Assembly (NCBI GenBank): GCA_021817045.1
Contig: JAKAWG010000016.1
Location: 1 to 64,000 of the forward strand
Direction: 5' to 3'
Source of the DNA: Acidobacteriota bacterium
Lineage (GTDB): Bacteria > Acidobacteriota > Terriglobia > UBA7540
DNA: 64,000 nucleotides
Shown here piece by piece: positions 43,666-58,758 of the stretch. Each line of letters starts with the position of its first letter. The first letter of the stretch is position 1. The notes beneath the pieces were generated by a model. It had not been told where the DNA came from. It saw only the letters and a list, made by a program, of their open reading frames with translations, and searched no databases. A program made the position numbers and the translations under genes.

Positions 43666-45174
43666 ATGCATGGGATCTTGGGGTCTCCGGCTGCACGACT
43701 TTCGGAGGAGGAACGGAAGGCAGCTTTTGCCCGTGCGAAGAAAGCCGAAGTCGTTGAGCGGCAAAAGCTGCCCGTCCGTTATCACGTCGAGGATTTTGAG
43801 ACCGCAGACCGTCCACGCCGTTTTCTTGAAGCCTTTGCGGCCATCCTGAAACACACGAGCTACCGGCTGGCACTGGATCACTATGTTCGCGTGACCGCCC
43901 GGTGCGCGCGGTGCGCCGTAGCCTGCCCGATCTATGAAACCACCGGGGACCCTCGCGATATACCCTGCCGGCGTTCCGAGCTTCTCCTGTCCATCTATCG
44001 GCGGCACTTTACCCTTTCTGGCATCCTCCGGGCAAGGCTGCTTGGCGATCCGGGCCTGACGGACGAGCGCATTCAGGAAATTGCGGATTCCTACTATGAC
44101 TGCACAGCTTGCCGGCGATGCCACTTTGAATGTCCGATGGGCATCGATCATGGACTGATTACCCACCTCGGCCGATACACTCTCTCTGAAATCGGGATTG
44201 CGCCTCGTGCCTTGGTGGTCAGCACGCGGGAGCAATTGACGGGACGCACCGCAAATACCTCCGCTATTCCGCTTCCGGCACTGTTGGACACGCTGGAATT
44301 TCTGGCTGAGGACATCAAGGAAGAGAAGGGAATTGCGGTTCAGTTTCCGGTGGATCAGGAAGGAGCGGAGTACCTTTTCCTCCCTGCCGTATCCGACTAC
44401 ATTATGGAGGCCGAAACGCTCAAGGGCATCGCCGCGGTGTTCAAGGCGACTGGTGACACCTGGACCATTGGCTCGCGCTACTTCGATGCCATCAACTACG
44501 GCCTCTTTTACAGCGATCAGGTGCTGGAGCACGCTCTTCGCAAGATCAAGGAGGAAGCTGAACGGCTGAAGGTGAAAAAAATCCTGATCGGCGAGTGCGG
44601 CCATGCTTCCCGGTCCGCGAAGTATTTCTACCCGGCCTTCTGCGGTGGTCCAAATGCTTTACCCGCGGTCAGCATCCTCGAATATACGCACCAGGCTCTG
44701 AAAGAGGGACGTATCAGGCTCGACCCGAAGGTCGTCAAAGAGGCTGTCACCTACCACGATCCGTGCAATTTCGCCCGCCCGGGGTGGATTGTCAATCAGC
44801 CCCGGGAGACTCTGAAAGCATTTTGCTCGGGCTACGTCGAGATGACGCCGAGCGGGCGTGAGAACCTCTGTTGCGGCGGGGGCGGGGGAACGGTATCGAT
44901 TGACGAGATCCGGCCTTATCGAACGCGAGTCTCAGGAAAAATCAAAGCCGAGCAGATTCGGTCTACCGGAGCACAATACTGCGTCGCGCCCTGCGCCAAC
45001 TGCAAAAAACAACTTCGGGAGCTGATGGAAGACCAGCACGTTGACTGCGAGATTCTCGGCCTCCACGACCTGATCTATAAAGCGATCATTCTGCCCCCCG
45101 ATCGGGGAAGCGCTTCAGGCGCGGACGACGCAGCGGAAGGCAGCGGTTTGAACCGCGCCGTTACCGCGGATTGA
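43666..45174 (+). CDS. HdrD/DsrK-like iron-sulfur CCG protein
   Basis: 502 aa. Two N-terminal [4Fe-4S] motifs: CARCAVACP (about 80-88) with a distal IPCRR, and CTACRRCHFECP (about 150-165). Two C-terminal CCG domains: GECGHASRSAKYFYP and YHDPCNFARPGWI with NLCCGGGGG and a final CVAPCANCKK, which ligate a catalytic [4Fe-4S] as in HdrD, DsrK and TmcB. No signal peptide or membrane span, hence cytosolic. It heads a four-gene cluster with a NarI-like cytochrome, a ferredoxin and NrfD. Start ATG 43666 chosen; TTG 43630 and GTG 43651 are in frame. Confidence 0.85.
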   Translation: MHGILGSPAARLSEEERKAAFARAKKAEVVERQKLPVRYHVEDFETADRPRRFLEAFAAILKHTSYRLALDHYVRVTARCARCAVACPIYETTGDPRDIPCRRSELLLSIYRRHFTLSGILRARLLGDPGLTDERIQEIADSYYDCTACRRCHFECPMGIDHGLITHLGRYTLSEIGIAPRALVVSTREQLTGRTANTSAIPLPALLDTLEFLAEDIKEEKGIAVQFPVDQEGAEYLFLPAVSDYIMEAETLKGIAAVFKATGDTWTIGSRYFDAINYGLFYSDQVLEHALRKIKEEAERLKVKKILIGECGHASRSAKYFYPAFCGGPNALPAVSILEYTHQALKEGRIRLDPKVVKEAVTYHDPCNFARPGWIVNQPRETLKAFCSGYVEMTPSGRENLCCGGGGGTVSIDEIRPYRTRVSGKIKAEQIRSTGAQYCVAPCANCKKQLRELMEDQHVDCEILGLHDLIYKAIILPPDRGSASGADDAAEGSGLNRAVTAD

Positions 45175-45239
45175 CATAACCCTCTTTCGTTTTGTGCCGC
45201 GAGCGCATTAGTCGCAGCCGGAGCGGTACCGTTGAAACC

Positions 45240-46055
45240 GTGGCCTTCACATCCCTCCGGTTAAAGAGGAGGTTTGATACGGAAGCGTGGATCGAATTCG
45301 GGCGCGGCCCGCTATTCCGCCTGTGCTTCGCACTGTTGGTGCTTGGCCTGATTCGGATTCTGGCGCTGACGTGGGCCGGCATTTTTGACGTTTACCGTCA
45401 CAGTCCCGACAAAATCTTACCGTGGAAAGAGATCACCAAGAAGACCTTGGCGTGGCTCATTCCCGTCCGGAAGTTATGGACGGCGCGGCCGGTTTATAGC
45501 GCGATCTCGTTCCTCTTCCACCTCGGCTTGATCCTCACTCCCCTGTTTCTGGCCTCTCACAACCTGTTGTGGCAGAAGGGGGTGGGCTTTAGTTTGCCCT
45601 CCTTGCCGCAGAGGGTGGCAAACATCCTCACCCTGCTTGTTGTTGGCGCGGCTTTGTCTATCTTTTTCGGGCGCGTACTTTATCCGGCCGCGCGAGCGAT
45701 CAGCCGCGCGCAGGACTACCTCTGGCCGCTCTTACTCGCCGTTCCCTTCGCAACCGGGTACGTGGCGTCCAACCCCGTCATCAGTCCAAGGACGTATGAA
45801 CTCATGATGCTGCTCCACGTCTATGCCGGCGATCTCATTCTGGTCATGATCCCGTTTACGAAGCTGGCCCATTGCGTGCTGGCGCCGCTTTCGCAGCTTG
45901 TAACTCATCTGGCCTGGAAATTTCCTGCCGGAGCGGGCGACCGGGTGGCCGAAACCCTTGGTTACGCGGCGATGCCGACGTGGTTACCCCAGGCGCGGCT
46001 TCGTGCGAGGCCTGAAGCGCCGAACCCCGAACAAGGGCAGGTGATTCAGAAATGA
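45240..46055 (+). CDS. NarI/DsrM-like membrane cytochrome b
   Basis: 271 aa from GTG 45240 (an upstream start would add 16 polar residues). About five membrane helices: LFRLCFALLVLGLIRILALT, SAISFLFHLGLILTPLFLAS, NILTLLVVGAALSIFF, YLWPLLLAVPFATGYV and MMLLHVYAGDLILVMIPFTK. His residues at the helix ends (FHLGLI, ASHN, LLHVYAG, LAHC) are likely heme b ligands. It is the quinone-reactive partner in DsrM/TmcC/NarI-type modules. Overlaps the next gene by 4 bases. Confidence 0.82.
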   Translation: MAFTSLRLKRRFDTEAWIEFGRGPLFRLCFALLVLGLIRILALTWAGIFDVYRHSPDKILPWKEITKKTLAWLIPVRKLWTARPVYSAISFLFHLGLILTPLFLASHNLLWQKGVGFSLPSLPQRVANILTLLVVGAALSIFFGRVLYPAARAISRAQDYLWPLLLAVPFATGYVASNPVISPRTYELMMLLHVYAGDLILVMIPFTKLAHCVLAPLSQLVTHLAWKFPAGAGDRVAETLGYAAMPTWLPQARLRARPEAPNPEQGQVIQK

Positions 46056-46819
46056 AAACAGCTATCCTCACAGATACGACCAAGTGCATTGGATGTCACC
46101 TGTGCGTGGAAGCATGCAAAGAGGTCAACCACCTGCCGAATGACATGCCTCGCCGGTGGGACATGAGGGATGGGCTTTCCGCCGATAACTGGACCGCCGT
46201 CATCCGTCGCGACGACGACAAGTTTGTTCGCAAGCAGTGCCGGCACTGCCTCGAGCCGGCTTGCGTTGCTTCCTGCCCGGTGGCAGCTCTCCACAAGACA
46301 AATCTCGGGCCCGTTGTTTACGACAAGACGCGATGCATTGGCTGCCGCTATTGCATGATGGCCTGCCCGTATGGCATCCCGCGCTACCAGTGGGACTCCA
46401 CCGTGCCGTACATTCAGAAGTGCGTTCTTTGCTACGACACGCGGCTGAAACATGGCCGCGAGCCAGCCTGCACCGAGATTTGCCCCACCAAGGCCACGAT
46501 TTTTGGCGACCGCGACAAGCTCCTCGGCGAAGCTCACCAGAGGATTCGCCAGAATCCCGGCAAATACATCCATCGCGTATGGGGAGAGCACGAGCTTGGT
46601 GGAACGTCGGTTCTTTACATCTCCGACGTGGATCTGTCGTTTCTCACCTACGGCGCGCGCTTCGGAGAAAAGCCCCTGCCGGTTGCGACTCGGCCGGCCA
46701 TGGAGGCCGTTCCTTTCACCTTCCTTGGCGTCGCCATGGCGATGGCAGGGCTGCGCTGGATCATCGGACGGCGCGACAAGGTGCAGCGGGAAGAAGGCAG
46801 CCAGGAGCCGGAGGAATAA
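46052..46819 (+). CDS. HybA/DmsB-like four-cluster ferredoxin subunit with a C-terminal anchor
   Basis: 255 aa starting MKTAILTDTTKCIGCHLCVE. Sixteen Cys in four groups (CIGC-C-C, CRHC-C-C, CIGCRYCMMACP, CVLC-C-C) give four [4Fe-4S] clusters. One C-terminal membrane helix (AVPFTFLGVAMAMAGLRWII) follows. Family members such as HybA and DsrO carry a Tat signal; none is present here, so the clusters would be cytosolic unless it is exported with a partner. Starts in an ATGA overlap and ends adjacent to the NrfD gene. Confidence 0.85.
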   Translation: MKTAILTDTTKCIGCHLCVEACKEVNHLPNDMPRRWDMRDGLSADNWTAVIRRDDDKFVRKQCRHCLEPACVASCPVAALHKTNLGPVVYDKTRCIGCRYCMMACPYGIPRYQWDSTVPYIQKCVLCYDTRLKHGREPACTEICPTKATIFGDRDKLLGEAHQRIRQNPGKYIHRVWGEHELGGTSVLYISDVDLSFLTYGARFGEKPLPVATRPAMEAVPFTFLGVAMAMAGLRWIIGRRDKVQREEGSQEPEE

Positions 46820-48910
46820 ATGGACAGGGTCAGGCGGCTGAAACTCCTGCTCTGGATGCCGGTAGGGCTGGGCTTTGCCGTAACCGTCGATCGGTTTTTT
46901 TTCGGGCTTGGCGCAGCCACCCACCTCTCAGATGCCACGCCCTGGGGACTGTGGATTGGCTTCGACGTGATGAGCGGGGTCGCCTTGGCCGCAGGTGGCT
47001 TTGTCCTGACCGCTACCGTCTATATTTTCAGACTCGAGCGGTTCCACTCTATTGTCCGTCCGGCAGTCCTGACGGCGTTCCTCGGATACGTCGCTGTGGT
47101 CGCTGGCTTATTGTTCGATCTCGGCCTTCCGTGGCACATCTGGCACCTGATCATTTATTGGAATCCGCACTCGCCCCTGTTTGAGGTGGGTTGGTGCGTG
47201 ATGCTCTATCTGACGGTTCTGACGCTGGAGTTCTTTCCTGTACCTGCGGAGGACGTCTCGTCATTAGCCCGCGTCCGGCGGTTCCTGGTCAAGATGCGCA
47301 TTCCCCTCGTCATCCTGGGAATCGCTCTGTCCACCCTGCATCAGTCATCGCTCGGATCGCTTTTCCTGATCATGCCCTACCGTTTATACCCGCTTTGGTA
47401 CTCTCCCATTCTCCCGGTGCTCTTTTTCATTTCCGCAATCGCGCTGGGACTCATGATGGCGATCTTTGAGAGTCATTTTACGGCGTACTTCTACCGGCGA
47501 AAGCCGGAAACCGCCGTGCTTGCCTCGCTGGCTTCCGCTGCGCGCTGGGTGCTGATCCTCTACTTAGTCGTCCGCTTTAGCGATCTCGCGGCACGCGGGC
47601 AACTGCACGACCTCGTAGGCAGTGCGTGGCAAGTGAAGATGTTCTGGTTTGAAATCGTCGTGGCAGGCTTGTTACCCGTCGTTCTCTTCTCCATTTCAAA
47701 ATTCAACCGTCGGCCGGGTTGGCAGTGGGGGACGGCGGCGGTCGGTGTGGGCGGAATTGTGCTCGACCGCGTCAACGTGGGAGGGCTGATCGACCTAAGC
47801 CGGGGCGCCGCGCTCTACCTGCCTTCGTGGCAGGAGATCGTCACAAGCCTTGCCATTGTTGCCGGAGCCGTTCTTGTCTTCCTTTTCATCATCGAGCACT
47901 TCAGGGTCTGGGAAGAAAGACCGGTCGATCCAAAAGCGGACCCCAAACGTCTCCCGGAGCTAAATCCGGTCGGCGAAACCTGGCTGGGCGCTCCGGTGAT
48001 TGCGGCTCGAATCAAGTATTCATTAGCGTTCGTCTTGGCGGCGGCCTTAGCTTTCTCCTTCCTGGCGAATCCGAAGGTTGAGGCGACAGGCATCGTGCCC
48101 GTGCCGGCTCACCGGGCACGCGGGGACGTGGGAAAACTGCCGGGCATCTCGTCCCGCGTATCGTTTAACAGTTCCCTCACTCCCAGCCCCTCCCCCGCAA
48201 GCGGGAGAGGCGGGACCGCAAAGCGGTGGGTGAGGGCAAAGCGCCAGAAGGCGACGGCAATTCCGGCGGGCGTGCTCTACCTGGACGGCGATCTGACAGG
48301 GTGGGGAGTGACCTTCTACCACCAGCGCGAAGTTGAACGCAACGGAGGCGAGAAGTCATGCGCGATTTGCCACCACATGAATATGCCGCACGATCAGAAC
48401 TCGGGCTGCTATGAGTGCCACCGGGACATGTATCAGCCAACCGACGCGTTCCGGCATAACTGGCACGCTTCTCGGAGCGGCGCGAATCTTGCGTGCATCC
48501 AGTGCCACGAGGCGGGCTATCCCCGAACATCCGCGCAGGTGAAGCCTTGCACGGACTGCCACAAGGACATGATTCCCCCCGGGGCGACCATTCAGGTTAG
48601 CAGTGAAAACCTTGTTGACGCCTCCGGAGAAATTCGGCGTCTCATCACTCCCGGCAGCGTGGTCAAGATCAACACTTACACTGCCGTCTCTTACGTAGAC
48701 GCCATGCACGAGCTTTGCGTTGGCTGTCACGCGCAGGTGGCAGAGCGCGAAAAGAAACCGGAAGTGGCGCAGTGCGCCGAGTGCCACAAGGGGAAATTGA
48801 ACTATTCGGACACAGTCAACCTGCTCTATCAGCGCACCGCGGTAGCCGGCCGGCGGGTCGTCATGCCGCCGCCTCCGGCAAGCCCCGGCGGCGCAGCGAT
48901 GAAGCCGTAG
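46820..48910 (+). CDS. NrfD/HybB-type membrane protein fused to a hexaheme cytochrome c
   Basis: 696 aa. Residues 1-430: about ten membrane helices with the HybB hallmark ALSTLHQSSLGSLFLIMPYR, then one more helix near 395-420 (SLAFVLAAALAFSFLA) that would put the C-terminus outside. Residues about 475-696: a soluble cytochrome with six CxxCH hemes at about 514, 530, 559, 577, 633 and 652 (CAICH, CYECH, CIQCH, CTDCH, CVGCH, CAECH). In DsrMKJOP and Hmc these are separate genes (DsrP plus DsrJ, HmcC plus HmcA). The linker at about 450-475 is encoded by a dispersed palindromic repeat. Confidence 0.87.
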   Translation: MDRVRRLKLLLWMPVGLGFAVTVDRFFFGLGAATHLSDATPWGLWIGFDVMSGVALAAGGFVLTATVYIFRLERFHSIVRPAVLTAFLGYVAVVAGLLFDLGLPWHIWHLIIYWNPHSPLFEVGWCVMLYLTVLTLEFFPVPAEDVSSLARVRRFLVKMRIPLVILGIALSTLHQSSLGSLFLIMPYRLYPLWYSPILPVLFFISAIALGLMMAIFESHFTAYFYRRKPETAVLASLASAARWVLILYLVVRFSDLAARGQLHDLVGSAWQVKMFWFEIVVAGLLPVVLFSISKFNRRPGWQWGTAAVGVGGIVLDRVNVGGLIDLSRGAALYLPSWQEIVTSLAIVAGAVLVFLFIIEHFRVWEERPVDPKADPKRLPELNPVGETWLGAPVIAARIKYSLAFVLAAALAFSFLANPKVEATGIVPVPAHRARGDVGKLPGISSRVSFNSSLTPSPSPASGRGGTAKRWVRAKRQKATAIPAGVLYLDGDLTGWGVTFYHQREVERNGGEKSCAICHHMNMPHDQNSGCYECHRDMYQPTDAFRHNWHASRSGANLACIQCHEAGYPRTSAQVKPCTDCHKDMIPPGATIQVSSENLVDASGEIRRLITPGSVVKINTYTAVSYVDAMHELCVGCHAQVAEREKKPEVAQCAECHKGKLNYSDTVNLLYQRTAVAGRRVVMPPPPASPGGAAMKP
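48174..48235. repeat. Palindromic repeat lying in frame in the NrfD-cytochrome gene
   Basis: CCTCACTCCCAGCCCCTCCC begins it and GCGGTGGGTGAGGG ends it, with a central CCCGC-AAGCGGG hairpin and a CCGC-AAAGCGG hairpin. This GTGAGGG/CCCTCAC-ended element type is normally intergenic; a related copy is at 52010-52066. Here it reads through in frame as TPSPSPASGRGG and more, between the membrane and heme domains. Confidence 0.75.
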
Positions 48911-48932: not shown

Positions 48933-49769
48933 TTGTCAGCGTTCTTGCATTCAATCCTGTTGATGTGCGGCGCGTTTGCGACCGGCATCGTTGGAGCGCT
49001 CACCGGCCTGGGCGGCGGGGTCATCCTCGTTCCCATGCTCGTGTTGCTCTTTGACGTCAACATGCGCTACGCGGCCGGGGCGTCACTCATTGCGGTCATT
49101 GCAACCTCTTCGGGAGCTGCAGCCGCTCTCCTGAGCGAGGGTTACACGAACCTGCGTATCGGGATGTTCCTTCAACTCACCTCCATCGCTGGCGGCATCG
49201 CGGGCGCCTTGCTCGCCGGGTTTGTCCCGGTCCCTGCCCTGTTCACGGTATTTGGCGCGGTGCTGCTTTACTCCAGTTTAATGACCGTTCGCCGGAAAGA
49301 AGAAAGCGAGCAGGGCCGGCCTTCTGATCGTTTGGCGACGCGCCTGAAACTGGAAAGCAGTTATCCCGTCCTTGGCGGCTGGCGCTCTTACAAAGTCGTC
49401 CGAACTTCCCCCGGCGCGCTCTTGATGAGCGTGGCCGGGTTCATTTCAGGACTTTTGGGCATCGGCGCGGGCGCGGTCAATGTGCTGGTGATGGATCAGG
49501 TGATGAGGCTTCCTTACAAGGTTTCAACCAGCACCAGCAATTTCATGATTGGAATCACCGCCGCGGCCAGCGCGGGGGTTTATCTGGATCAAGGCTTCAT
49601 TGACCCGGTTATAACCATGCCCGTGATGCTTGGCGTGCTCGGGGGCGCCGCCGTCGGTGCGAGGCTTCTCATGATCGTAAGAGCCAAGCCTGTGAGGTTG
49701 CTCTTCAGCGTGATCGTCTTTCTGACGGCTCTCGAGATGATCTACAAAGGTGTATCTCAATGGCGCTGA
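48933..49769 (+). CDS. TauE/SafE family sulfite/sulfonate exporter, copy 1
   Basis: 278 aa from TTG 48933 with AGGAGG eight bases upstream. Eight or so membrane helices; GALTGLGGGVILVPMLVLLF and a second GFISGLLGIGAGAVNVLVMD form the two family repeats. Members export sulfite, sulfoacetate or other organosulfonates. The gene follows the redox complex directly (22 bases) and overlaps a DUF1634 gene by 10 bases. A near-duplicate lies at 52615-53451. Substrate inferred only from family. Confidence 0.88.
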   Translation: MSAFLHSILLMCGAFATGIVGALTGLGGGVILVPMLVLLFDVNMRYAAGASLIAVIATSSGAAAALLSEGYTNLRIGMFLQLTSIAGGIAGALLAGFVPVPALFTVFGAVLLYSSLMTVRRKEESEQGRPSDRLATRLKLESSYPVLGGWRSYKVVRTSPGALLMSVAGFISGLLGIGAGAVNVLVMDQVMRLPYKVSTSTSNFMIGITAAASAGVYLDQGFIDPVITMPVMLGVLGGAAVGARLLMIVRAKPVRLLFSVIVFLTALEMIYKGVSQWR

Positions 49770-50134
49770 TCATGCGGCGCGTCGAAAGACTGATTGGTTT
49801 GGTCCTTCTTGCCGGCGTGTTGGCTTCGGCGGCAACGGTTTTGGCGGGTGGTGTGCTGTTTCTATGGCATCACGGTTCAGACCCCGTTCATTACCGCGTG
49901 TTTCGTGGAGAGCCCTCCGACCTCAAGACCTTTGAAGGGATTTGGGAAGAAGTTCTGCACGGCTCAGGTCGGGGAGTTATCCAGTTTGGGTTGATCATGC
50001 TGGTCGCCGTTCAATTGGTTCGGGTGGGTTTAACCGGCATTCTATTTGGCTTGATTCGCGATAGAGCTTTTGTGGTTATCACGTTTTTGGTTTTAGGTCT
50101 GTTGACGTATGCGTTGTTTCTCGTGGGACGCTGA
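49760..50134 (+). CDS. DUF1634 family membrane protein
   Basis: 124 aa with three membrane helices: LIGLVLLAGVLASAATVLAG, IQFGLIMLVAVQLVRVGLTG and VVITFLVLGLLTYALFL. The DUF1634 family is a known neighbour of TauE/SafE genes and probably an accessory subunit. Overlap with the transporter (10 bases) supports coupling. The second transporter copy lacks this partner. Confidence 0.82.
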   Translation: MALIMRRVERLIGLVLLAGVLASAATVLAGGVLFLWHHGSDPVHYRVFRGEPSDLKTFEGIWEEVLHGSGRGVIQFGLIMLVAVQLVRVGLTGILFGLIRDRAFVVITFLVLGLLTYALFLVGR

Positions 50135-50180
50135 GCGCTTGGAGTTCCTGCATTCGGGGTTCGGTGTGCCGGGTCTTGGA

Positions 50181-50264
50181 CAGCCCCGAAGGGGCGCTCA
50201 ATCCCAGCCCAGGCCAACGGCCTGGGTTGAGCCCCGTCCCCCGAATTCGAGCCCTGGAAGGGCG
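50181..50264. repeat. REP-like palindromes left of the RAYT gene
   Basis: Three short hairpins: GCCCC-GAA-GGGGC (50183-50195), CCCAGGCC-AAC-GGCCTGGG (50208-50226) and GCCCT-GGA-AGGGC (50250-50262). Their position beside a Y1 transposase fits REP elements mobilised by a RAYT. Confidence 0.7.
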
Positions 50265-50285
50265 AACTAGACGTGAGGCACCCGT

Positions 50286-50737
50286 ATGGGTCAGGCTCTC
50301 AGTAGGCTTTACATTCAGCTGATCTTCAACACCAAAGGGCGCGAGCCGATGTTGCTGAGAGGTGTGCACGTCCAGATGCACGCTTATCTGGGCGGCGTCC
50401 TCAACCGTCACGACTGCCCAGCGATCCGGGTAGGCAGCAAGGCCGACCACGTACATGCTCTGTTTCGCCTCTCGAAGAACTGCTCACTGGCCGAGGTGGT
50501 GGAGGAGGTCAAGACCGGTTCCTCCCGCTGGATCAAGACGCGGGCCAGGGGACTGGGCGGCTCTCATTGGCAGGCCGGCTACGGAGGATTCTCAGTGAGC
50601 GCAGGCATTTGCATGAGGTCGCGGAGTACATCGAGCGGCACAAGTCACATCATCGGTCATTGAGCTTCCAGGATGAGTATCGACGGTTCCTGGAGCAGCA
50701 CGAGATCGAATATGACGAACGCTACGTGTGGGATTAA
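50286..50737 (+). pseudogene. Frameshifted REP-associated (RAYT/IS200-like) transposase
   Basis: MGQALSRLYIQLIFNTKGRE opens a Y1_Tnp domain; the HUH motif is DHVHALF. The frame continues to about 50600 (WQAGYGGFSVS) and then the homologous tail switches frame: ERRHLHEVAEYIERHKSHH, then SFQDEYRRFLEQHEIEYDER and YVWD, ending at the TAA at 50735-50737. One missing base near 50599-50604 explains the shift. The first frame runs on to a spurious stop at 50663. The probable catalytic Tyr (EYIERH) is in the lost part, so the enzyme is probably inactive. REP-like palindromes flank it. Confidence 0.8.
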
Positions 50738-50749
50738 GCCAGGATGGGG

Positions 50750-50840
50750 CGCCCTTTCAGGGCTGGATAGTTCGGAAAGCATCCCCGCTGACCCTGGGCG
50801 TTGCCCAGGGCTGGCATAGATCGGCCCTTGGGGCCTGCCA
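50750..50840. repeat. REP-like palindromes right of the RAYT gene
   Basis: CGCCCT-TTC-AGGGC near 50750, CCCTGGGC-GTT-GCCCAGGG (50792-50810) and GGCCC-TTG-GGGCC (50823-50835). The GNC-GCCC pattern resembles the left-hand set, consistent with paired REPs (BIME-like) around the transposase. Confidence 0.7.
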
Positions 50841-50852
50841 AAGGTAGAAACT

Positions 50853-50880
50853 CCCGGGCGGGGTTAAAACTCCGCCCTCC
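50853..50880. repeat. GGCGGGGTT-type palindrome before kinase copy 1
   Basis: GGGCGGGGTT-AA-AACTCCGCCC is an inverted repeat with one mismatch per arm, followed by TCC. A matching GGCGAGGTT-CA-AACCCCGCC followed by CTCCTA lies before transporter copy 2 (52538-52563). Both lie upstream of the duplicated cassettes, so a shared regulatory or repeat role is possible. Confidence 0.55.
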
Positions 50881-50904
50881 AGGTTTCGTCAAGGAGGTGT
50901 CGTC

Positions 50905-51747
50905 ATGGCGATTATAACCATTTCGCGCGGTTCGATGAGCGGGGGAGAGGCGCTGGCCAACTGCCTGGGCGCGACCCTGGGCTATCCGGTTCTTGCCCGC
51001 GAGGTGCTCATCGAGGCAGCCGCAAGGTTGGGTGTCTCTGAGGAACTCTTGAGGGAGAAAATCCAGACGACCTCGGGAGGCTTTGAGAAGCTGCGAGAAG
51101 ATCGCCGCATCTACCTCCTTGCGCTGCAATCGGCCTTAGCGGACCGGTGTGTCTCGGGCAACCTCATTTATCACGGAAATGCTGGCCATCTTCTGCTAAA
51201 GGGCCTGCCCACGCTTCTACGAGTGCGCCTGATTGCATCGATCGCCGCGCGCGTCCGCGCCGTTGTCGAGCGGCAGGGTTTGGATCCGGAGCCAGCCAGG
51301 GAGTACATCAAGTACGTTGATCAGGAACGCGTTGAATGGAACAAGTTTGTCTACGGCGTCGACTGGCGAGACCCGAAGAACTATGACCTCGTTGTCAACC
51401 TGCGAAATGTCAGCCTTCAGGCTGCCTGCGTCATGATCTCATCGGTGGTGATGCTGCCGACGTACACCAGTACTCCCGAAGTAAAGAAGCAGCTCCAGGA
51501 TTTCGCCTTGGCGTGCCGGGTCCAACTTGCTCTGGCTGTGGACCCGGGGTTCCGGGGACTGCCATTCGCTGTTCATGCCGATGGCGGAAAGGTGGAAATC
51601 TCCTGGCAGGCAGCTTCCGGCGCAGTGGGCGCGAGGCCGGCCCAGTTAAACAAAGACCTGATCAGGCACACGGCCATCTTGGTGGAAGGAGTGCGGGAAG
51701 TCACTCTGCTCCCTGAAAGAATCGAACCGCTCCCGCAAGCGGGATGA
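50905..51747 (+). CDS. Cytidylate-kinase-like protein with BON-like C-terminus, copy 1
   Basis: 280 aa, AAGGAGGT nine bases before ATG 50905. MAIITISRGSMSGGEALANC is a P-loop-like N-terminus of the cytidylate kinase-like family, with YPVLAREVLIEAAARLGVSE and LIYHGNAGHLLLKGLPTLLR typical. The last 80 residues resemble a BON-like alpha/beta domain (AVHADGGKVEISWQ). The P-loop is SRGSMSGG, lacking the usual GKG(S/T), so phosphotransfer is uncertain. It lies after the TauE/SafE-DUF1634 pair, with the RAYT remnant between. Substrate unknown. Confidence 0.8.
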   Translation: MAIITISRGSMSGGEALANCLGATLGYPVLAREVLIEAAARLGVSEELLREKIQTTSGGFEKLREDRRIYLLALQSALADRCVSGNLIYHGNAGHLLLKGLPTLLRVRLIASIAARVRAVVERQGLDPEPAREYIKYVDQERVEWNKFVYGVDWRDPKNYDLVVNLRNVSLQAACVMISSVVMLPTYTSTPEVKKQLQDFALACRVQLALAVDPGFRGLPFAVHADGGKVEISWQAASGAVGARPAQLNKDLIRHTAILVEGVREVTLLPERIEPLPQAG

Positions 51748-51779
51748 TTAGAGCCGGCGTGAAAACTCGTCGCAACTCG

Positions 51780-51866
51780 TTGACAGCCAAGCCGATCCGT
51801 AGTATTTTACGGTGTAGGTTCGAAGCACGGAAGTGGCCCCACGCTTACCCCGAAAAGTCGGGGTTT
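51780..51866 (+). promoter_or_regulatory. Promoter-like box and hairpin, possible small RNA
   Basis: TTGACA (51780-51785), 17 bases, TATTTT (51803-51808, 4 of 6), then about 40 bases later a perfect CCCCGA-AAAG-TCGGGG hairpin followed by TTT (51848-51866). The T-run is short. No reading frame is close behind. It could make a transcript of about 50 nucleotides. Confidence 0.35.
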
Positions 51867-52009
51867 CCCCTCTCTACAACCAGGTTGGGTGACTGCATGG
51901 AAGTTCGGAAACTTACCGTCAAGCGGCATGAGTATCTTGCTCATGCTCGCCTCCGCTCTTTGCTCCGGCGCATCGTGGCGAGTGCCCTACCCCGCTTAAC
52001 TCTTGGCAG

Positions 52010-52066
52010 TCCCCTCGCCCCCTCGGGGGAGACGGTGGCGAGCGTAGCGAGCCGGGTGAGGGGGTC
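52010..52066. repeat. GTGAGGG-type dispersed repeat
   Basis: CCCCTCGCCCCCTCGGGGGA at the left and CCGGGTGAGGGGG at the right, with GGCGAGC-GTA-GCGAGCC arms. It shares outer arms CCCTC/GAGGG with the copy in the NrfD-cytochrome gene (48174-48235). Confidence 0.6.
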
Positions 52067-52500
52067 GCCAGAGGCCATGATTGTAAAGAGTTATGCGGGA
52101 CACCGCACTCGAAACTCTCTAAACCGGAATGTTCTGTGTTCTCAGCATGATGGCGCGTCTAGCTCCCCCTCCGATTGCGCATTTTGGGTGCGCCCATGGC
52201 AGGCTTCATTCACACAAAAGAGCCCGGGGCTTCCTGATGTGTGCGCTGCTTACTATCGGAGGAAAAGAGGACAAAGGAAAAAGATTGTTTATGACGAACA
52301 AACTGCATTCAACCAGTTGAAACCAAAGGATAATTATCACGATCAATGACCAACAATCTCCCGAAGTCCACGTATCTAACGGATTCTAAATGATTAACTG
52401 GAATTGATTGTTGGCAAAAGCATAAGTTATAGAAAATACTGTATTTAGTCGGAAATGGCGAAATTGTTTGTGCAGAATGGGTGATTCACGTCTAGTTGGC

Positions 52501-52568
52501 GCGGGAGGAGCGAGAATAGCGCGAAGCGCCTCGCAACGGCGAGGTTCAAACCCCGCCCTCCTACCCGC
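52501..52568. other. Candidate structured RNA / three-way-junction palindrome
   Basis: Outer stem GCGGGAGGAG with CTCCT-A-CCCGC (one bulge) encloses two hairpins: CGAG-aata-GCGC-gaa-GCGC-CTCG and GGCGAGGT-TCAA-ACCCCGCC. It lies 47 bases before transporter copy 2. Not a tRNA. It could be an RNA control element of the downstream gene or simply another repeat. Confidence 0.45.
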
Positions 52569-52614
52569 GTGGTGAGAGGTCCGGTCTCATCAGTTGACTT
52601 GAAGGCGGTTGGGG

Positions 52615-53451
52615 ATGGGTAGTTGGATTTTCAGCTCGTATTTGTTGGGTGGCTCGCTCCTGGCAGGCTTGATTGGCTCCCTGACGGGCCTTGGAGGCGG
52701 GGTGCTTCTGGTTCCCATGCTCGTGCTGCTTTTTCATGTGAATGTGCGCTACGCCGTGGGAGCGTCACTCATCTCCGTGATCGCCACATCCTCCGGAGCC
52801 GCATCCGCATACCTCAGCGAGGGTTACACGAACCTTAGAATTGGCATGTTCTTGCAGGTTGCGGCCACATCGGGTGCTATCCTAGGGGCCGTCGTTGCGG
52901 AGCACCTTCATGCAGCGACGATCGCGATCATATTTGGAGCCGTCCTTCTATACTCCGCCTATCTTTCCTTTCGACGCCAGGAAGAAGCCGAGTTGGACCG
53001 TCCGTCCGACCCGCTGGCGGTTCGCCTGCAGATGGAAGGTAGCTACCCCGTCGCAGGTGGATGGAAATCCTACCGGGTATCCAACGTGGGCGGAGGATTT
53101 TCGTTGATGCTGGGTGCCGGCACGCTCTCAGGATTGTTGGGAATTGGCTCTGGAGCTGTGAAAGTGCTGGCGATGGATCAACTGATGCGCTTGCCGTACA
53201 AGGTCTCAACCACCACGAGCAATTTCATGATCGGTATCACCGCGGCGGCCAGCGCCGGAATTTATCTGCACCAAGGCTTTATCGACCCGGGCCTGACCAT
53301 GCCGGTGATGCTGGGAGTTTTTCTGGGCGCGTTCGGCGGCGCCAAGCTGTTGATGGCGGTTCCGACGAAGCCGCTCAGGATATTCTTTAGCTTCATCATC
53401 TTTATAATGGCTGCAGAGATGATTTATAGCGGCCTGACAGGGAAACTCTGA
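52615..53451 (+). CDS. TauE/SafE family sulfite/sulfonate exporter, copy 2
   Basis: 278 aa from ATG 52615 with AAGGCGG upstream, the same length as copy 1. Closely related to it throughout: GSLTGLGGGVLLVPMLVLLF, GASLISVIATSSGAASAYLS and EGYTNLRIGMFLQVAAT are shared with minor changes. Eight or so membrane helices. There is no DUF1634 partner; the kinase-like gene follows after 14 bases. A tandem duplicate that has diverged, with substrate unknown. Confidence 0.88.
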   Translation: MGSWIFSSYLLGGSLLAGLIGSLTGLGGGVLLVPMLVLLFHVNVRYAVGASLISVIATSSGAASAYLSEGYTNLRIGMFLQVAATSGAILGAVVAEHLHAATIAIIFGAVLLYSAYLSFRRQEEAELDRPSDPLAVRLQMEGSYPVAGGWKSYRVSNVGGGFSLMLGAGTLSGLLGIGSGAVKVLAMDQLMRLPYKVSTTTSNFMIGITAAASAGIYLHQGFIDPGLTMPVMLGVFLGAFGGAKLLMAVPTKPLRIFFSFIIFIMAAEMIYSGLTGKL

Positions 53452-53465
53452 GGAGGAAGTCCCTC

Positions 53466-54305
53466 ATGGCAATCATCACCATCTCGCGCGGTTCGATGAG
53501 CGGCGGCATGGCCTTCGCCGAGTGCCTGGCGGCAACACTGGGCTATCCGTCGCTCGCCCGAGAGGTTCTTGTGGAGGCTGCCGGGAAACTCGGTGTGCCC
53601 GAAGAGACGCTGCACGGCAAAATTGAAAGAAGCGCGAGGTTTTGGGAGCGCATGACGTCCGACCGGAGGATTTATCTCGTCGCCCTGCAATCCGCGCTCG
53701 CCGACGCCTCTGTCGGCGGAGATTTGATCTATCACGGTAATGCAGGGCACCTCTTGCTGAACGATCTCCCGACTGTGCTTCGCGTGCGGCTGATCGCGCC
53801 CCTGCCGATGCGTATCCGCGAGCTCATGAGCCGCAAAGGAATGGATTATCAGGCGGCGAAAGAATACATCAACATGATGGATGAGGAACGAGTGCGGTGG
53901 ACAAAATTTGTTTACGGCCTGGACTGGCGCGATCCGCGCAACTACGATCTGGTCATCAATCTCAAAAACGTTACGATTGAGACGGCGTGTGCCATGGTCT
54001 CGGCGGCTGTAAAGCTGCCGGCCTACGCGACCACCGAGGAAGTGAAGAAGAAGCTTCGCGACTTTTTGCTTGCGTGTCGGGTGAAGGTGGCTCTTGCGGC
54101 TAACCCGGAGACACGCGGCACTGCTTTCGAGGTGAAGGCTGACGGCGACGCGGTCGAGGTCTTCGGAGAGCTCGCAACGGGCGGCGTGCTAATCCGCAAA
54201 GCCGGACCTAGCGAAGAGGACGTTCGGCTGATTGCGCGAACTGTGGGCGGAGTGAAGGAAGCGACGGTCAATTTGCACCATTTCCCCGCGTTCCCAGACG
54301 CGTAA
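53466..54305 (+). CDS. Cytidylate-kinase-like protein with BON-like C-terminus, copy 2
   Basis: 279 aa with AGGAGGAAG before ATG 53466. The first 14 residues are identical to copy 1 (MAIITISRGSMSGG), and ALQSALADASVGGDLIYHGN and EERVRWTKFVYGLDWRDPRN parallel it. As in copy 1 there is no canonical GKGS/T loop. A BON-like end (AFEVKADGDAVEVFG) is followed by LIARTVGGVKEATVN. The pairing with a TauE/SafE gene in both copies suggests a shared job, unknown at present. Confidence 0.8.
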   Translation: MAIITISRGSMSGGMAFAECLAATLGYPSLAREVLVEAAGKLGVPEETLHGKIERSARFWERMTSDRRIYLVALQSALADASVGGDLIYHGNAGHLLLNDLPTVLRVRLIAPLPMRIRELMSRKGMDYQAAKEYINMMDEERVRWTKFVYGLDWRDPRNYDLVINLKNVTIETACAMVSAAVKLPAYATTEEVKKKLRDFLLACRVKVALAANPETRGTAFEVKADGDAVEVFGELATGGVLIRKAGPSEEDVRLIARTVGGVKEATVNLHHFPAFPDA

Positions 54306-54349
54306 GCCTGCGTGGGTTGGTCAGGCACGGAACGGAACGGCGAGACGAC

Positions 54350-54994
54350 ATGCAGGGCACGGCGAGTAAACCTGAGCGCGCTCCCAAGCCGCCAAAGCCT
54401 GGCGGATCGGATGTGCCTTTGTTCCCCATTTTCACGCGGCTTGGCGGCAGGCGGGTGCTGGTTGCTGGCGGAGGCGCGATGGCAACCGTCCGGGTACGGC
54501 AATTGCTCGCCGCGGGCGCGAACGTTACCGTGATTTCGCCCCGTTTCTGCGAGGAATTGCGGAGCCTGGCGCGGAGCCAAAGGCGGAGGATCGAGTTAGT
54601 GAGGAGGGAATTGCGGCGAACGGATGTGACGCGCGAGTTCGTCATCGTCGTTGGTGCTACGAACGATCCTGTGACGCAGCTTGTTCTGGCCGATGAGGCG
54701 GAGAAGGCTGGCTTGCTTTACAACGTCGTGGACGCGCCCGACCGGTGCAATTATTTCACGCCGGCGGTTGTTGAAAGGGGCGGGCTCCAGATCGCCATAT
54801 GCAGCAGCGGACAGAGTCCGGTCTTATCCGGCCGCATGCGTCAGTTGCTGGACCAGGCGCTGCCGAAAGAAACGGGTGAATGGGTGGCCCTCCTCGGAGA
54901 ACTGCGTGAAAGATTGAAAAGAGCCTTTCCACGCGATTTGAAGAGGCGGAAAGAGCTCATCAACGAATTTATTGAAAGGGTGACACAGTCATGA
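54350..54994 (+). CDS. Siroheme synthase N-domain (precorrin-2 dehydrogenase/ferrochelatase)
   Basis: 214 aa. PLFPIFTRLGGRRVLVAGGG, with the NAD-binding GGGAMATVRVRQLLAAGANV, then the family segments LLYNVVDAPDRCNYFTPAVV and LQIAICSSGQSPVLSGRMRQ. This is the CysG(N)/Met8 dehydrogenase that turns precorrin-2 into sirohydrochlorin, and in some homologues inserts iron. It lacks the C-terminal methyltransferase, which is the next gene, overlapping by 4 bases. An in-frame start at 54317 exists; ATG 54350 is preferred, with weak ribosome binding signals. Confidence 0.88.
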   Translation: MQGTASKPERAPKPPKPGGSDVPLFPIFTRLGGRRVLVAGGGAMATVRVRQLLAAGANVTVISPRFCEELRSLARSQRRRIELVRRELRRTDVTREFVIVVGATNDPVTQLVLADEAEKAGLLYNVVDAPDRCNYFTPAVVERGGLQIAICSSGQSPVLSGRMRQLLDQALPKETGEWVALLGELRERLKRAFPRDLKRRKELINEFIERVTQS

Positions 54995-55938
54995 TTTCTC
55001 ATGAGTGGCGTAAGGGCTTGCAGCCCACCCATAGTGATGAAAATGGTCCATCTCGTCACCCCCGCGAAGGCGGGGGTCCAGCTTCCTGGATTCCCGCTTT
55101 CGCGGGAATGACTCGCAAAGAGCGCCCTCCCAAAGAGCACACTCCGGGCAAGGTTTACATCGTCGGGGCGGGGCCAGGGGCGCACGATTTAATCACGCTA
55201 CGAGGGCTTAGAGCGCTGCGCTTGGCCGACGTCGTTTTTTACGACGCGCTCGTCAGCCCCGAGCTGCTGGCGGAAGCTCCGTCTGCGGATCTGATCTTCG
55301 TTGGCAAAAGGTGCGGACGCCATCCTGTTGAGCAGCACGAGACGGTCCGCATGATGATCGAGCGGGCCCGCAGGGGGGACATTGTGGTGCGCCTCAAGGG
55401 AGGCGATCCGATGATTTACGGCCGAGGAGGTGAAGAGGCCCTTGCCTGCAACGAAGCGCTTATCGAATACGAAATCATTCCCGGTGTCTGCTCGGCCTTG
55501 GGTGCGGCGAGCTTTGCCGGGATTCCGCTCACTCATCGTGGCGTCGCCTCATCGGTGGCTTTTGTAACCGCGCACAGCGCTGCCTGCTTGGGCAAGCCGG
55601 ATTTGAGTTGGGGTCATCTCGTAAAAGCCGTCGATACCCTGGTTATTTTCATGGGAGGCTCGTGGCTGGAACCCATCGCTTCCGCACTCGTGGGATTTGG
55701 CTTGCCGCCGGAAACGGCCGCGGCTGTCGTCAGCCATGCGACCCATGAGAATCAACAGACGGTTGTCGGATCGCTCCGGGACATCGCACAACGAGTAAAG
55801 GAAGCCCACTTGGCTACGCCGGTGTTGATCATTGTGGGGGCCGTGGCAGAGTTCGGCGAAACCCTTAACTGGTTTGAGCGCCAGCGCCTCGTGGCGTCAT
55901 GCACCGCTGCGGAGGATTTCCCGACTTCGGCACTTTGA
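54991..55938 (+). CDS. cobA: Uroporphyrinogen-III C-methyltransferase (SUMT)
   Basis: 315 aa from the ATGA overlap at 54991. The enzyme starts at about residue 53: GKVYIVGAGPGAHDLITLRG, DIVVRLKGGDPMIYGRGGEE and IEYEIIPGVCSALGAASFAG are the SAM-binding and GDPF-like motifs. It methylates C2 and C7 of uroporphyrinogen III, giving precorrin-2 for siroheme and corrinoids. Residues about 22-41 (HPREGGGPASWIPAFAGMT) are read from a dispersed palindromic repeat. ATG 55108 could be a repeat-free start, but its ribosome binding site is poor. Confidence 0.92.
   Translation: MISHEWRKGLQPTHSDENGPSRHPREGGGPASWIPAFAGMTRKERPPKEHTPGKVYIVGAGPGAHDLITLRGLRALRLADVVFYDALVSPELLAEAPSADLIFVGKRCGRHPVEQHETVRMMIERARRGDIVVRLKGGDPMIYGRGGEEALACNEALIEYEIIPGVCSALGAASFAGIPLTHRGVASSVAFVTAHSAACLGKPDLSWGHLVKAVDTLVIFMGGSWLEPIASALVGFGLPPETAAAVVSHATHENQQTVVGSLRDIAQRVKEAHLATPVLIIVGAVAEFGETLNWFERQRLVASCTAAEDFPTSAL
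55054..55112. repeat. CGTCACCCCC-type palindromic repeat in frame within cobA
   Basis: CACCCCCGCGAAGGCGGGGG hairpin, then ATTCCCGC-TTTC-GCGGGAAT. The sequence is a widespread intergenic repeat type that yields the PAFAGMT peptide when read through. Here it lies in the first 41 codons of cobA without a stop or shift. Confidence 0.85.
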
Positions 55939-57312: not shown

Positions 57313-58758
57313 CTACGACGCGAGCGCGCTCTGGCCGGTATCTTGCGGAAGGAAAACGAGCGGCTTGGCTGATTTGAAGCGACGAGCTGCGGCGATGAGA
57401 CCTTTGATCCAGGCGGGCGTTGCGAGCGCGTGTAAATGCGTGTAACTGGCCCAGCAATTGTTGACGATCATCCCGTCCCGTCCCGTCCCGCACCCGGTTC
57501 CACGCTCGACCTTGCAGGCGGTCAAGAAGAGCCCGGGATCGCCCATGATCCTCGAATAGTGGAATTCGTGGCCGCGCAACCGAGTGCCTGGCGGGAAGAA
57601 CGGATTCAGCCGGTCCACCATAAGCTGGCTGTAGCCATGACCTTGTGGCGTGCCGCACACCTCAACCTCGACGGGAAAAACCCGCGCCATGGGATACCGC
57701 CGTCCTCGCCAATTAATTGCCCGCGCAAGCAACATCAGCCCGCCGCATTCAGCATAAACTGGCAAACCGTTGGCAATGTGGCTGCGAATGGACTCTAAAA
57801 AGGGCTGGTTCTGTGAAATCTGTGAGCCGTGCGTTTCCGGAAACCCGCCGCCGATGTAGAGAGCGTCCACGTCGTCGGAAGCGCTGGTTCCCAAAAGCGC
57901 GGAGAAAGGCACAAGTGACGCGCCGGATTTCTCGATCGCTTCCAGGTTTTCGGGGTAATAAAACGTGAAGGCGGAATCTTTCAAGTAACCGATTCGCAGT
58001 CCGTGCCCGTCTTCCGAAGTTTCACTCAGGGCGCGCGGCGGCACGAAGGGAGGAGCCGACCGGGCAATTTCAAGAATCCTCGCCAGATCCAAACGGTCGT
58101 TGAATAGAGCAAGGACATTGCCGCGGACTCGCTCAACGTCGGGATGCTCATCCGGCGTGACGAGGCCCAAATGACGGCTTGGCAACAACACCTCTCTATT
58201 CGCCCGAGGAACGGCGCCGACGACGGGCACACCACATGTCTCTTCCACCGCCCCTCGCAACAGGCGCTCATGCCTGCGTCCACCGAATTGATTTAGAATC
58301 ACCCCGCCGATCCGGACCTCCGGATCCAATTTCTGGCAGCCCAATACCAGCGCCGCCACGGTGCGCGTCGCCTTGGTAGCGTTCACCACCAGAAGGACCG
58401 GGGCGCGAAGCTGCTTGGCCAGTTCCGCGGTGCTGTGAGTGCCTTGGGCATCGACGCCATCGTACATGCCGCGGTTGCCTTCGATGACGCTAAGTCCGGC
58501 CGGCTCGGCACGCGTAAAAAAGGACCAGGCCGCGCTTTCCCACCCCATCAAAAAGCTGTCAAGGTTGCGGGCTGGACCTCCCGACGCCCAGCTCAGCCAT
58601 GCAGTATCAATGTAGTCCGGACCTTTCTTGAAGGCGACGACGGGAATGGCTCTTTCTCGGGCCAATAGGATCAGCCCAAGGGCGGCTAAGGTCTTGCCGG
58701 AATCTCCAGATGTTCCGGCGACCACAATACGCGGAAGTGAACGAAAACGCGCCTCCAC
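57313..58758 (-). CDS. Cobyrinate a,c-diamide synthase family (CbiA/CobB or DsrN-like) amidase
   Basis: 481 aa. N-terminal DethioB-like ATP domain: VVAGTSGDSGKTLAALGLIL (P-loop variant), then KKGPDYIDTAWLSWASGGPA and IEGNRGMYDGVDAQGTHSTA. C-terminal class I-like glutamine amidotransferase: ALYIGGGFPETHG and LPVYAECGGLMLLARAINWR with the catalytic Cys. It amidates two carboxylates of a corrin or siroheme. CbiA/CobB acts in cobalamin synthesis, DsrN on siroheme of sulfite reductase; the sirohydrochlorin genes next door fit either. It is convergent with the two hypotheticals. Confidence 0.85.
   Translation of the reverse strand: MEARFRSLPRIVVAGTSGDSGKTLAALGLILLARERAIPVVAFKKGPDYIDTAWLSWASGGPARNLDSFLMGWESAAWSFFTRAEPAGLSVIEGNRGMYDGVDAQGTHSTAELAKQLRAPVLLVVNATKATRTVAALVLGCQKLDPEVRIGGVILNQFGGRRHERLLRGAVEETCGVPVVGAVPRANREVLLPSRHLGLVTPDEHPDVERVRGNVLALFNDRLDLARILEIARSAPPFVPPRALSETSEDGHGLRIGYLKDSAFTFYYPENLEAIEKSGASLVPFSALLGTSASDDVDALYIGGGFPETHGSQISQNQPFLESIRSHIANGLPVYAECGGLMLLARAINWRGRRYPMARVFPVEVEVCGTPQGHGYSQLMVDRLNPFFPPGTRLRGHEFHYSRIMGDPGLFLTACKVERGTGCGTGRDGMIVNNCWASYTHLHALATPAWIKGLIAAARRFKSAKPLVFLPQDTGQSALAS

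Follow-up and report, generated by a model that had tools for sequence, protein, structure and literature searches.

A compact Hmc-like gene cassette with an NrfD-hexaheme cytochrome fusion, associated with dsr genes in Acidobacteriota and other phyla

The 64,000-nucleotide stretch considered here (hereafter the window), from an Acidobacteriota bacterium (contig JAKAWG010000016.1), carries four open reading frames (ORFs) in tight series on its forward strand, between positions 43666 and 48910. A previous reading of the sequence (the original prediction) had proposed that they encode, in this order, an HdrD/DsrK-like protein, a NarI/DsrM-like protein, a 16-Cys ferredoxin and an NrfD protein, together forming a compact Dsr/Hmc-like complex in which six hemes are fused to the NrfD part. 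All four ORFs were found as described, and the Pfam and NCBIfam profile matches of all four proteins bear out the affiliation. We call them K, M, Fd and N, and refer to the set as the cassette:

43666 (ATG) or 43630 (TTG) to 45174, + strand: K, a DsrK/HmcF/TmcB-like CCG/HdrD-type iron-sulfur protein, predicted to be cytoplasmic
45192..46055, + strand: M, a NarI/TmcC/HmcE-like membrane cytochrome b
46052..46819, + strand: Fd, an HmcB/HybA-like 4x[4Fe-4S] ferredoxin with a C-terminal tail anchor
46820..48910, + strand: N, an HmcC/HybB-type NrfD fused to a hexaheme cytochrome
48260..48907, + strand: hexaheme cytochrome c domain of N, of class III/HmcA-NhcA type by profile search
48128..48256, + strand: linker insertion in N, 43 amino acids (residues 437-479), seen in the window genome only, with a dispersed palindromic repeat inside

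The packing is operon-like: 17 bases separate K from M, M and Fd overlap by 4 bases, and N follows Fd with 0 bases between them. Judging from relatives, M may start up to about 30 codons further downstream. Three points go beyond the original prediction and form the core of this report: the linkage of the cassette to dsr genes, its spread over several phyla, and the HmcA type of its cytochrome.

Protein N combines NrfD and six CxxCH motifs within one reading frame. Its Pfam matches are NrfD (PF03916, 72 bits) and Cytochrom_CIII; among NCBIfam models, HmcC scores 313.6 bits against a cut-off of 550, and DsrP 21.6 against 350. Averaged over 77 sequences, the predicted topology consists of ten NrfD transmembrane helices and an eleventh (about residues 392-420) that precedes the heme domain, with a summed Lys/Arg charge of 18.8 in the inside loops versus 4.4 in the outside loops. 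This distribution ruled out an inverted NrfD as in SoeC; the NrfD has its N terminus inside (N-in), like HmcC and HybB, and the predicted topology shows the hexaheme domain placed in the periplasm by the eleventh helix. A structure model of N (predicted local distance difference test, pLDDT, 77.5) has a separate helix at residues 392-415 after a loop, and the best Protein Data Bank (PDB) match of its NrfD part is ActC. With an NrfD domain, ten helices, a 4x[4Fe-4S] ferredoxin partner and the ActC fold, the protein has the features of the ten-helix NrfD/PsrC superfamily. The fusion may be read as an NrfD joined to what was formerly the signal anchor of a cytochrome.

A scan of the contigs of a genome collection gave 187 confirmed matching stretches, and 80 loci were fetched for comparison. 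These loci include members of Acidobacteriota, Zixibacteria, Calditrichota, LCP-89, Ignavibacteriota, Bacteroidota, Kryptoniota and Myxococcota, and most of them hold K-M-Fd-N in that order. Exactly six CxxCH motifs, at near-constant spacing, are present in 76/76 complete relatives from at least eight phyla; a seventh CxxCH was seen in one Acidobacteriota copy (L099). The original prediction had allowed that the fusion could be missing from close relatives and so be an artefact of sequencing or assembly. A local origin of this kind, or by insertion, could be suspected from the linker of the window's copy: the core of its insertion (48174-48240) is an in-frame dispersed palindromic repeat, translated LTPSPSPASGRGG, which forms a strong hairpin and matches 9 other places in its own genome. 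However, residues 437-479 are missing in more than 90% of relatives, and the 76 complete relatives, nearly all without the insertion, have the same fusion. Because they share it, we reject the artefact, to which we attach a negligible probability; by sequence comparison the fusion is real and old, and it is absent from the named complexes DsrMKJOP, Hmc and Tmc. A second insertion in the window's copy, of 23 amino acids (48596-48664), lies between hemes 4 and 5 and is present in fewer than 10% of relatives.

When a profile of the heme domain was compared with PDB sequences, the 16-heme HmcA (1z1n) came first (1.1e-23), and the nine-heme cytochrome (19hc) gave 5.1e-10; a QrcA/ActA origin, considered as a candidate, was weaker than HmcA in this search. 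The domain also matches the NCBIfam HmcA and 9HemeCytC models weakly, and five of its His residues outside the heme motifs are invariant across relatives. Profiles were needed for this assignment: phmmer with a single fusion sequence against the PDB gave zero matches, and Foldseek with the isolated cytochrome model (pLDDT 71, hemes not included) gave no useful match. In a phylogeny of the NrfD domain run against DsrP, HmcC and HybB, the six-heme proteins form one group (support 67/66 with all rows; 85/96 with 28 rows and the long branch L089 removed), apart from HmcC, E. coli HybB, DsrP and the non-fused acidobacterial NrfDs. Other NrfDs, with three C-terminal CxxCH motifs (L103, L105, L129, L082), are scattered in this tree, and the joining of NrfD to a cytochrome may therefore have arisen more than once.

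The first two subunits also score below the cut-offs of their named relatives. K matches Pfam CCG (PF02754, 42.5 bits) and Fer4_8 (PF13183), and its two [4Fe-4S] motifs with one CCG catalytic domain are those of the CCG/HdrD family. Its best NCBIfam matches are DsrK (283 bits), TmcB (205) and HmcF (203), under the family cut-offs of 400 for DsrK and 750 for HmcF; cassette K proteins as a whole reach 248-298 bits on the DsrK model, and the true DsrK of locus L004 730 bits. In a tree of K, the cassette proteins make up their own clade (Shimodaira-Hasegawa-like approximate likelihood ratio support 99), apart from DsrK and from DsrK-like paralogues of the same genomes; the DsrK-like proteins other than DsrK, probably products of dsrM2K2, fall outside it. 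Identity of K across phyla is about 60-80%, and the eight iron-sulfur Cys are kept across relatives together with C323, C379, C414, C415, C455 and C458. The best NCBIfam matches of M, also sub-cut-off, are TmcC (about 129-130 bits) and HmcE (126 bits, cut-off 275). Its residues H110, H123, H209 and H227 are kept in 90-100% of 70 sequences, and from these four His the protein is expected to bind two hemes b.

The cassette is found chiefly in genomes that carry dsr genes. Two sets of carrier genomes, with one genome common to both, have dsrA in 44/50 and 21/30 cases, and dsrA is present in 60/66 carriers of the full four-gene cassette, a count that takes only genomes with K in the locus and leaves out two loci lacking the six-heme fusion. 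A search for the same fusion in other Acidobacteriota found it in 17 of 396 genomes; dsrA occurs in 32 and both occur in 16, so that dsrA is in 16/17 fusion carriers versus 16/379 others (Fisher p = 7.6e-19, uncorrected for phylogeny). The 17th of these carriers is G128, seen in locus L136. Several families hold both shared presence and shared absence of the fusion and dsrA. Physical linkage is seen as well: L004 has the gene run dsrL-dsrMKJOP-K-M-Fd-N, and the cassette lies beside dsrAB, dsrN or dsrL in at least 11 loci (L043, L044, L045, L049, L050, L063, L067, L080, L136, L137 and L138). DsrP scores above its cut-off in 43/51 carriers, which indicates that the cassette adds to DsrMKJOP and does not replace it. 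The genome of the window itself has aprBA-qmoABC-dsrAB-dsrL and DsrP, and its DsrC ends in ...KGACKLAGLPKPTGCV, with both functional Cys present.

Five Myxococcota loci (L070, L071, L072, L073 and L076) show the complex in reduced form: M-Fd-N is there, with the six-heme fusion, but K is missing from the locus and dsrA from the genome. K was not found elsewhere in these five genomes either. The comparison of dsrA in 0/5 of them with 60/66 K carriers gives p = 3.5e-5, the five being close relatives. That K is missing together with dsrA fits a DsrC-related substrate for K. For a comparison with the DsrC reductases (DsrMK, TmcB, HmcF), the observation at hand is the co-occurrence of the cassette with dsrA.

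Fd matches Pfam Fer4_11 and, below the cut-off of 420, NCBIfam HmcB (240 bits). Its Cys are invariant (16/16), and its tail helix (residues 222-238) is followed by a conserved Arg pair, R240 R241. The original prediction had noted that Fd lacks the twin-arginine translocation (Tat) signal usual in this role, and the observation holds throughout: no N-terminal signal peptide or extension was found in any relative with a readable start, whereas the controls, E. coli HybA and HmcB-type proteins (L116-L120), show Tat-like signals. From this absence a cytosolic location had been concluded, and here the topology analysis, while finding no signal peptide, yields a charge pattern that points to the periplasmic side. 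More Lys and Arg follow the tail helix than precede it in 74/74 informative copies (0 opposite), the conserved Arg pair included, which is the pattern of a tail anchor with its N terminus outside. In addition, NrfD is N-in with short conserved loops on the periplasmic (P) side, HmcB and HybA are exported by Tat, and a signal-less tail-anchored ferredoxin homologue is thought to be exported together with a Tat-bearing hydrogenase (PMC10924467), a precedent for hitchhiking.

Against these points, the cassette encodes no partner for Fd with a Tat signal, and signals are also lacking in the sister Fd-NrfD pairs of Acidobacteriota, whose neighbours are sensor kinases and not a catalytic subunit. 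Together with the missing signal peptide, this gives some credence, short of an even chance, to an Fd that is cytosolic, docked on the inner side of the membrane and linking K directly to NrfD, a topology not known in the family. A more specific form of this reading, in which a cytosolic Fd on the inner face of NrfD would couple menaquinone to the CCG site of K and to the covalently attached periplasmic hexaheme, in a dsr-specific respiratory complex common to sulfite and sulfate reducers from many phyla, appears to us rather unlikely; if true, it would amount to three-way coupling in one machine with a new topology. The tail charges of Fd and the orientation of NrfD favour, as sequence features, the periplasm, and the missing signal conflicts with it; nothing else in the system is as odd as the location of this signal-less ferredoxin.

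Compared with characterised systems, the cassette is a compact relative of Hmc by sequence, yet it lacks the features that define that complex. Hmc of Desulfovibrio (HmcABCDEF) is built from the same modules, namely an HmcA-type cytochrome, the ferredoxin HmcB, the NrfD protein HmcC, the cytochrome b HmcE and the CCG protein HmcF, and both are linked to sulfate respiration. In Hmc, however, HmcA is separate and has sixteen hemes, and HmcB bears a Tat signal, whereas the cassette has six hemes fused to NrfD and an Fd without one. Moreover, the cassette misses the HmcB, HmcC, HmcE and HmcF cut-offs (240/420, 314/550, 126/275 and 203/750 bits), its NrfD lies outside the HmcC clade, there is no room for HmcD between its genes, and its hosts are Acidobacteriota, FCB (Fibrobacterota-Chlorobiota-Bacteroidota) lineages and Myxococcota. 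DsrMKJOP (Hme) likewise combines a CCG protein, a cytochrome b, a ferredoxin, an NrfD and a cytochrome c, and occurs in the same genomes and sometimes in the same gene run; the cassette differs in a K that forms a clade separate from DsrK and stays under the DsrK equivalog cut-off, in an NrfD that is not DsrP-like (21.6 bits), and in having six CxxCH motifs instead of the triheme DsrJ. TmcABCD shares TmcB/TmcC-like subunits and a class III cytochrome, from which the cassette departs by its NrfD, its ferredoxin and the fused hexaheme cytochrome. The HybA-HybB pair of Hyd-2 resembles it through a HybB-like NrfD and a HybA-like tail-anchored ferredoxin, but the cassette has no hydrogenase subunits (neither the large nor the small subunit of a group-2 [NiFe] hydrogenase), its Fd lacks a Tat signal, and E. 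coli HybB branches in another part of the NrfD tree. QrcABCD and alternative complex III share the NrfD fold (ActC being the best PDB match) and a penta- or hexaheme cytochrome, whereas the cassette has no molybdoenzyme-like subunit, possesses K and M, and has a cytochrome nearer to HmcA than to ActA. Finally, the ferredoxin/HybB-like/[FeFe] hydrogenase system (PMC10924467) shares a signal-less tail-anchored ferredoxin with a HybB-like partner, but there a Tat-dependent hydrogenase adjoins, and none does in the cassette.

We consider it reasonably probable, from the sequences compared, that K-M-Fd-N is a compact Hmc-type transmembrane complex belonging to the dsr toolkit outside the classical Desulfovibrio group, beside DsrMKJOP. 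By analogy with Hmc and Qrc, from work on which the mechanism is drawn (PMC6303296, PMC8076601), we infer its partner and direction: as a 'mini-Hmc', it would move electrons among periplasmic cytochromes, menaquinone and cytoplasmic DsrC. The HmcA-like hexaheme arm would exchange electrons with periplasmic c-type cytochromes, and Fd would pass them on to menaquinone, bound by NrfD at its P side, a step probably accompanied by an electrogenic uptake of protons like the one proposed for HmcC and QrcD. Transfer across the membrane would fall to the cytochrome b subunit M and lead to K, at whose CCG site the disulfide or trisulfide of DsrC may be reduced or, in reverse, oxidised.

Several observations weigh against this reading. 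The proposed mechanism puts Fd at the P side, yet the protein carries no export signal. The draft genome of the window has no evident periplasmic hydrogenase, the single large subunit of a [NiFe] hydrogenase seen in it resembles the soluble group 3 type, and c7-type cytochromes are few. Sixteen Acidobacteriota genomes have dsrA without the fusion, which is therefore not essential for Dsr. Two Bryobacteraceae (L020 and L021) have M-Fd-N and dsrA, and the best K match in their genomes is just 36% identical, which suggests replacement of K.

Electrons might also flow outward: DsrC persulfide or menaquinol would donate them, and the hexaheme arm would hand them to cytochromes of the periplasm. In facultative anaerobes this could serve, for example, the respiration of oxygen, the oxidation of sulfur or extracellular electron transfer. 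The carrier metagenome-assembled genome CO124 (locus L014) is reported to alternate between reducing sulfate and respiring oxygen (PMC10564751), and DsrL, which used to be known from sulfur oxidizers alone (PMC6018796), occurs in carrier genomes. However, the subunits resemble those of Hmc and Qrc, which are discussed as quinone-reducing (PMC6303296), and a reductive use of Dsr is inferred in PMC10564751; no sequence feature fixes the direction, and we regard outward flow as doubtful.

Downstream of the Hmc-type cassette, the window holds two TauE/SafE genes, one DUF1634 gene and two PF13189 cytidylate-kinase-like genes (48933-54305), in which TauE-kinase pairs repeat and which are syntenic in L004, L005 and L007. 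Genes related to siroheme and dsr lie further on:

54317..54994, + strand: precorrin-2 dehydrogenase-like siroheme gene (DsrV-like; TIGR01470, 144 bits)
54991..55938, + strand: uroporphyrinogen-III C-methyltransferase (DsrWa-like; TIGR01469, 277 bits)
57313..58758, - strand: cobyrinate a,c-diamide synthase family (DsrN-like; CobB/CbiA family, 404 bits)

The two siroheme genes (54317-55938) are a downstream block that is again syntenic with L004, L005 and L007, and a homologue of the DsrN-like gene adjoins dsrAB/dsrL in other loci. A weakly NifX/Nitro_FeMo-Co-like gene precedes K in 22 loci. In over 50 loci (L005, L008, L010, L012, L015, L016, L027-L042 and others), genes for PAS histidine kinases and response regulators are neighbours of the cassette, mostly on the downstream side of N. 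In Acidobacteriota, an operon without dsr genes or catalytic subunit (L144:3177-9936, L145:4124-10645 and L147:3177-8715) contains a signal-less tail-anchored ferredoxin, an NrfD (sometimes with three CxxCH), a histidine kinase and a response regulator, often with a membrane GcvH-like protein as well, and is possibly a redox-sensing module.

Such neighbours raise the idea that the NrfD-Fd pair of the cassette reports the state of quinone or cytochromes to a nearby PAS histidine kinase and response regulators and does not serve bulk respiration. PAS histidine-kinase and response-regulator clusters accompany 54/81 and 52/81 loci, mostly downstream, and the related non-dsr pairs sit in the GcvH-Fd-NrfD-kinase-regulator operons. 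Yet the window, L004, L005 and L007 have TauE and siroheme genes downstream instead, and six hemes, a cytochrome b and an intact CCG site exceed what a sensor needs; we find a sensory role improbable.

Going by open-licence main texts, the proposed Hmc-type complex is apparently undescribed so far: the cassette is not described in such texts on dsr-bearing Acidobacteria, Thermonerobacter, Electryoneota, FCB phyla, NrfD complexes or partners of anaerobic methanotrophic archaea. For dsr-bearing Acidobacteria, the systems described in these papers are DsrMKJOP and dsrM2K2. For CO124, NrfD proteins were assigned to DsrP, QrcD, HydB and DmsC (PMC10564751), and the fused protein was probably counted there as 'HydB'. 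For Thermonerobacter, of which L077 is the ChocPot relative, dsrM-2/dsrK-2 are given after dsrC and the cassette is not mentioned.

Reducers of sulfite and sulfate are widespread beyond the classical groups, for example among Acidobacteriota, Zixibacteria, Calditrichota and Ignavibacteriota, but little is known about the route by which their Dsr pathway receives electrons. Most of the carriers examined hold the cassette as a second complex beside DsrMKJOP. The cassette is a marker to which annotation tools give the labels Hmc, HybB or DsrK at scores under the cut-offs. It also offers a concrete system in which to study how periplasmic electrons reach sulfite reduction.

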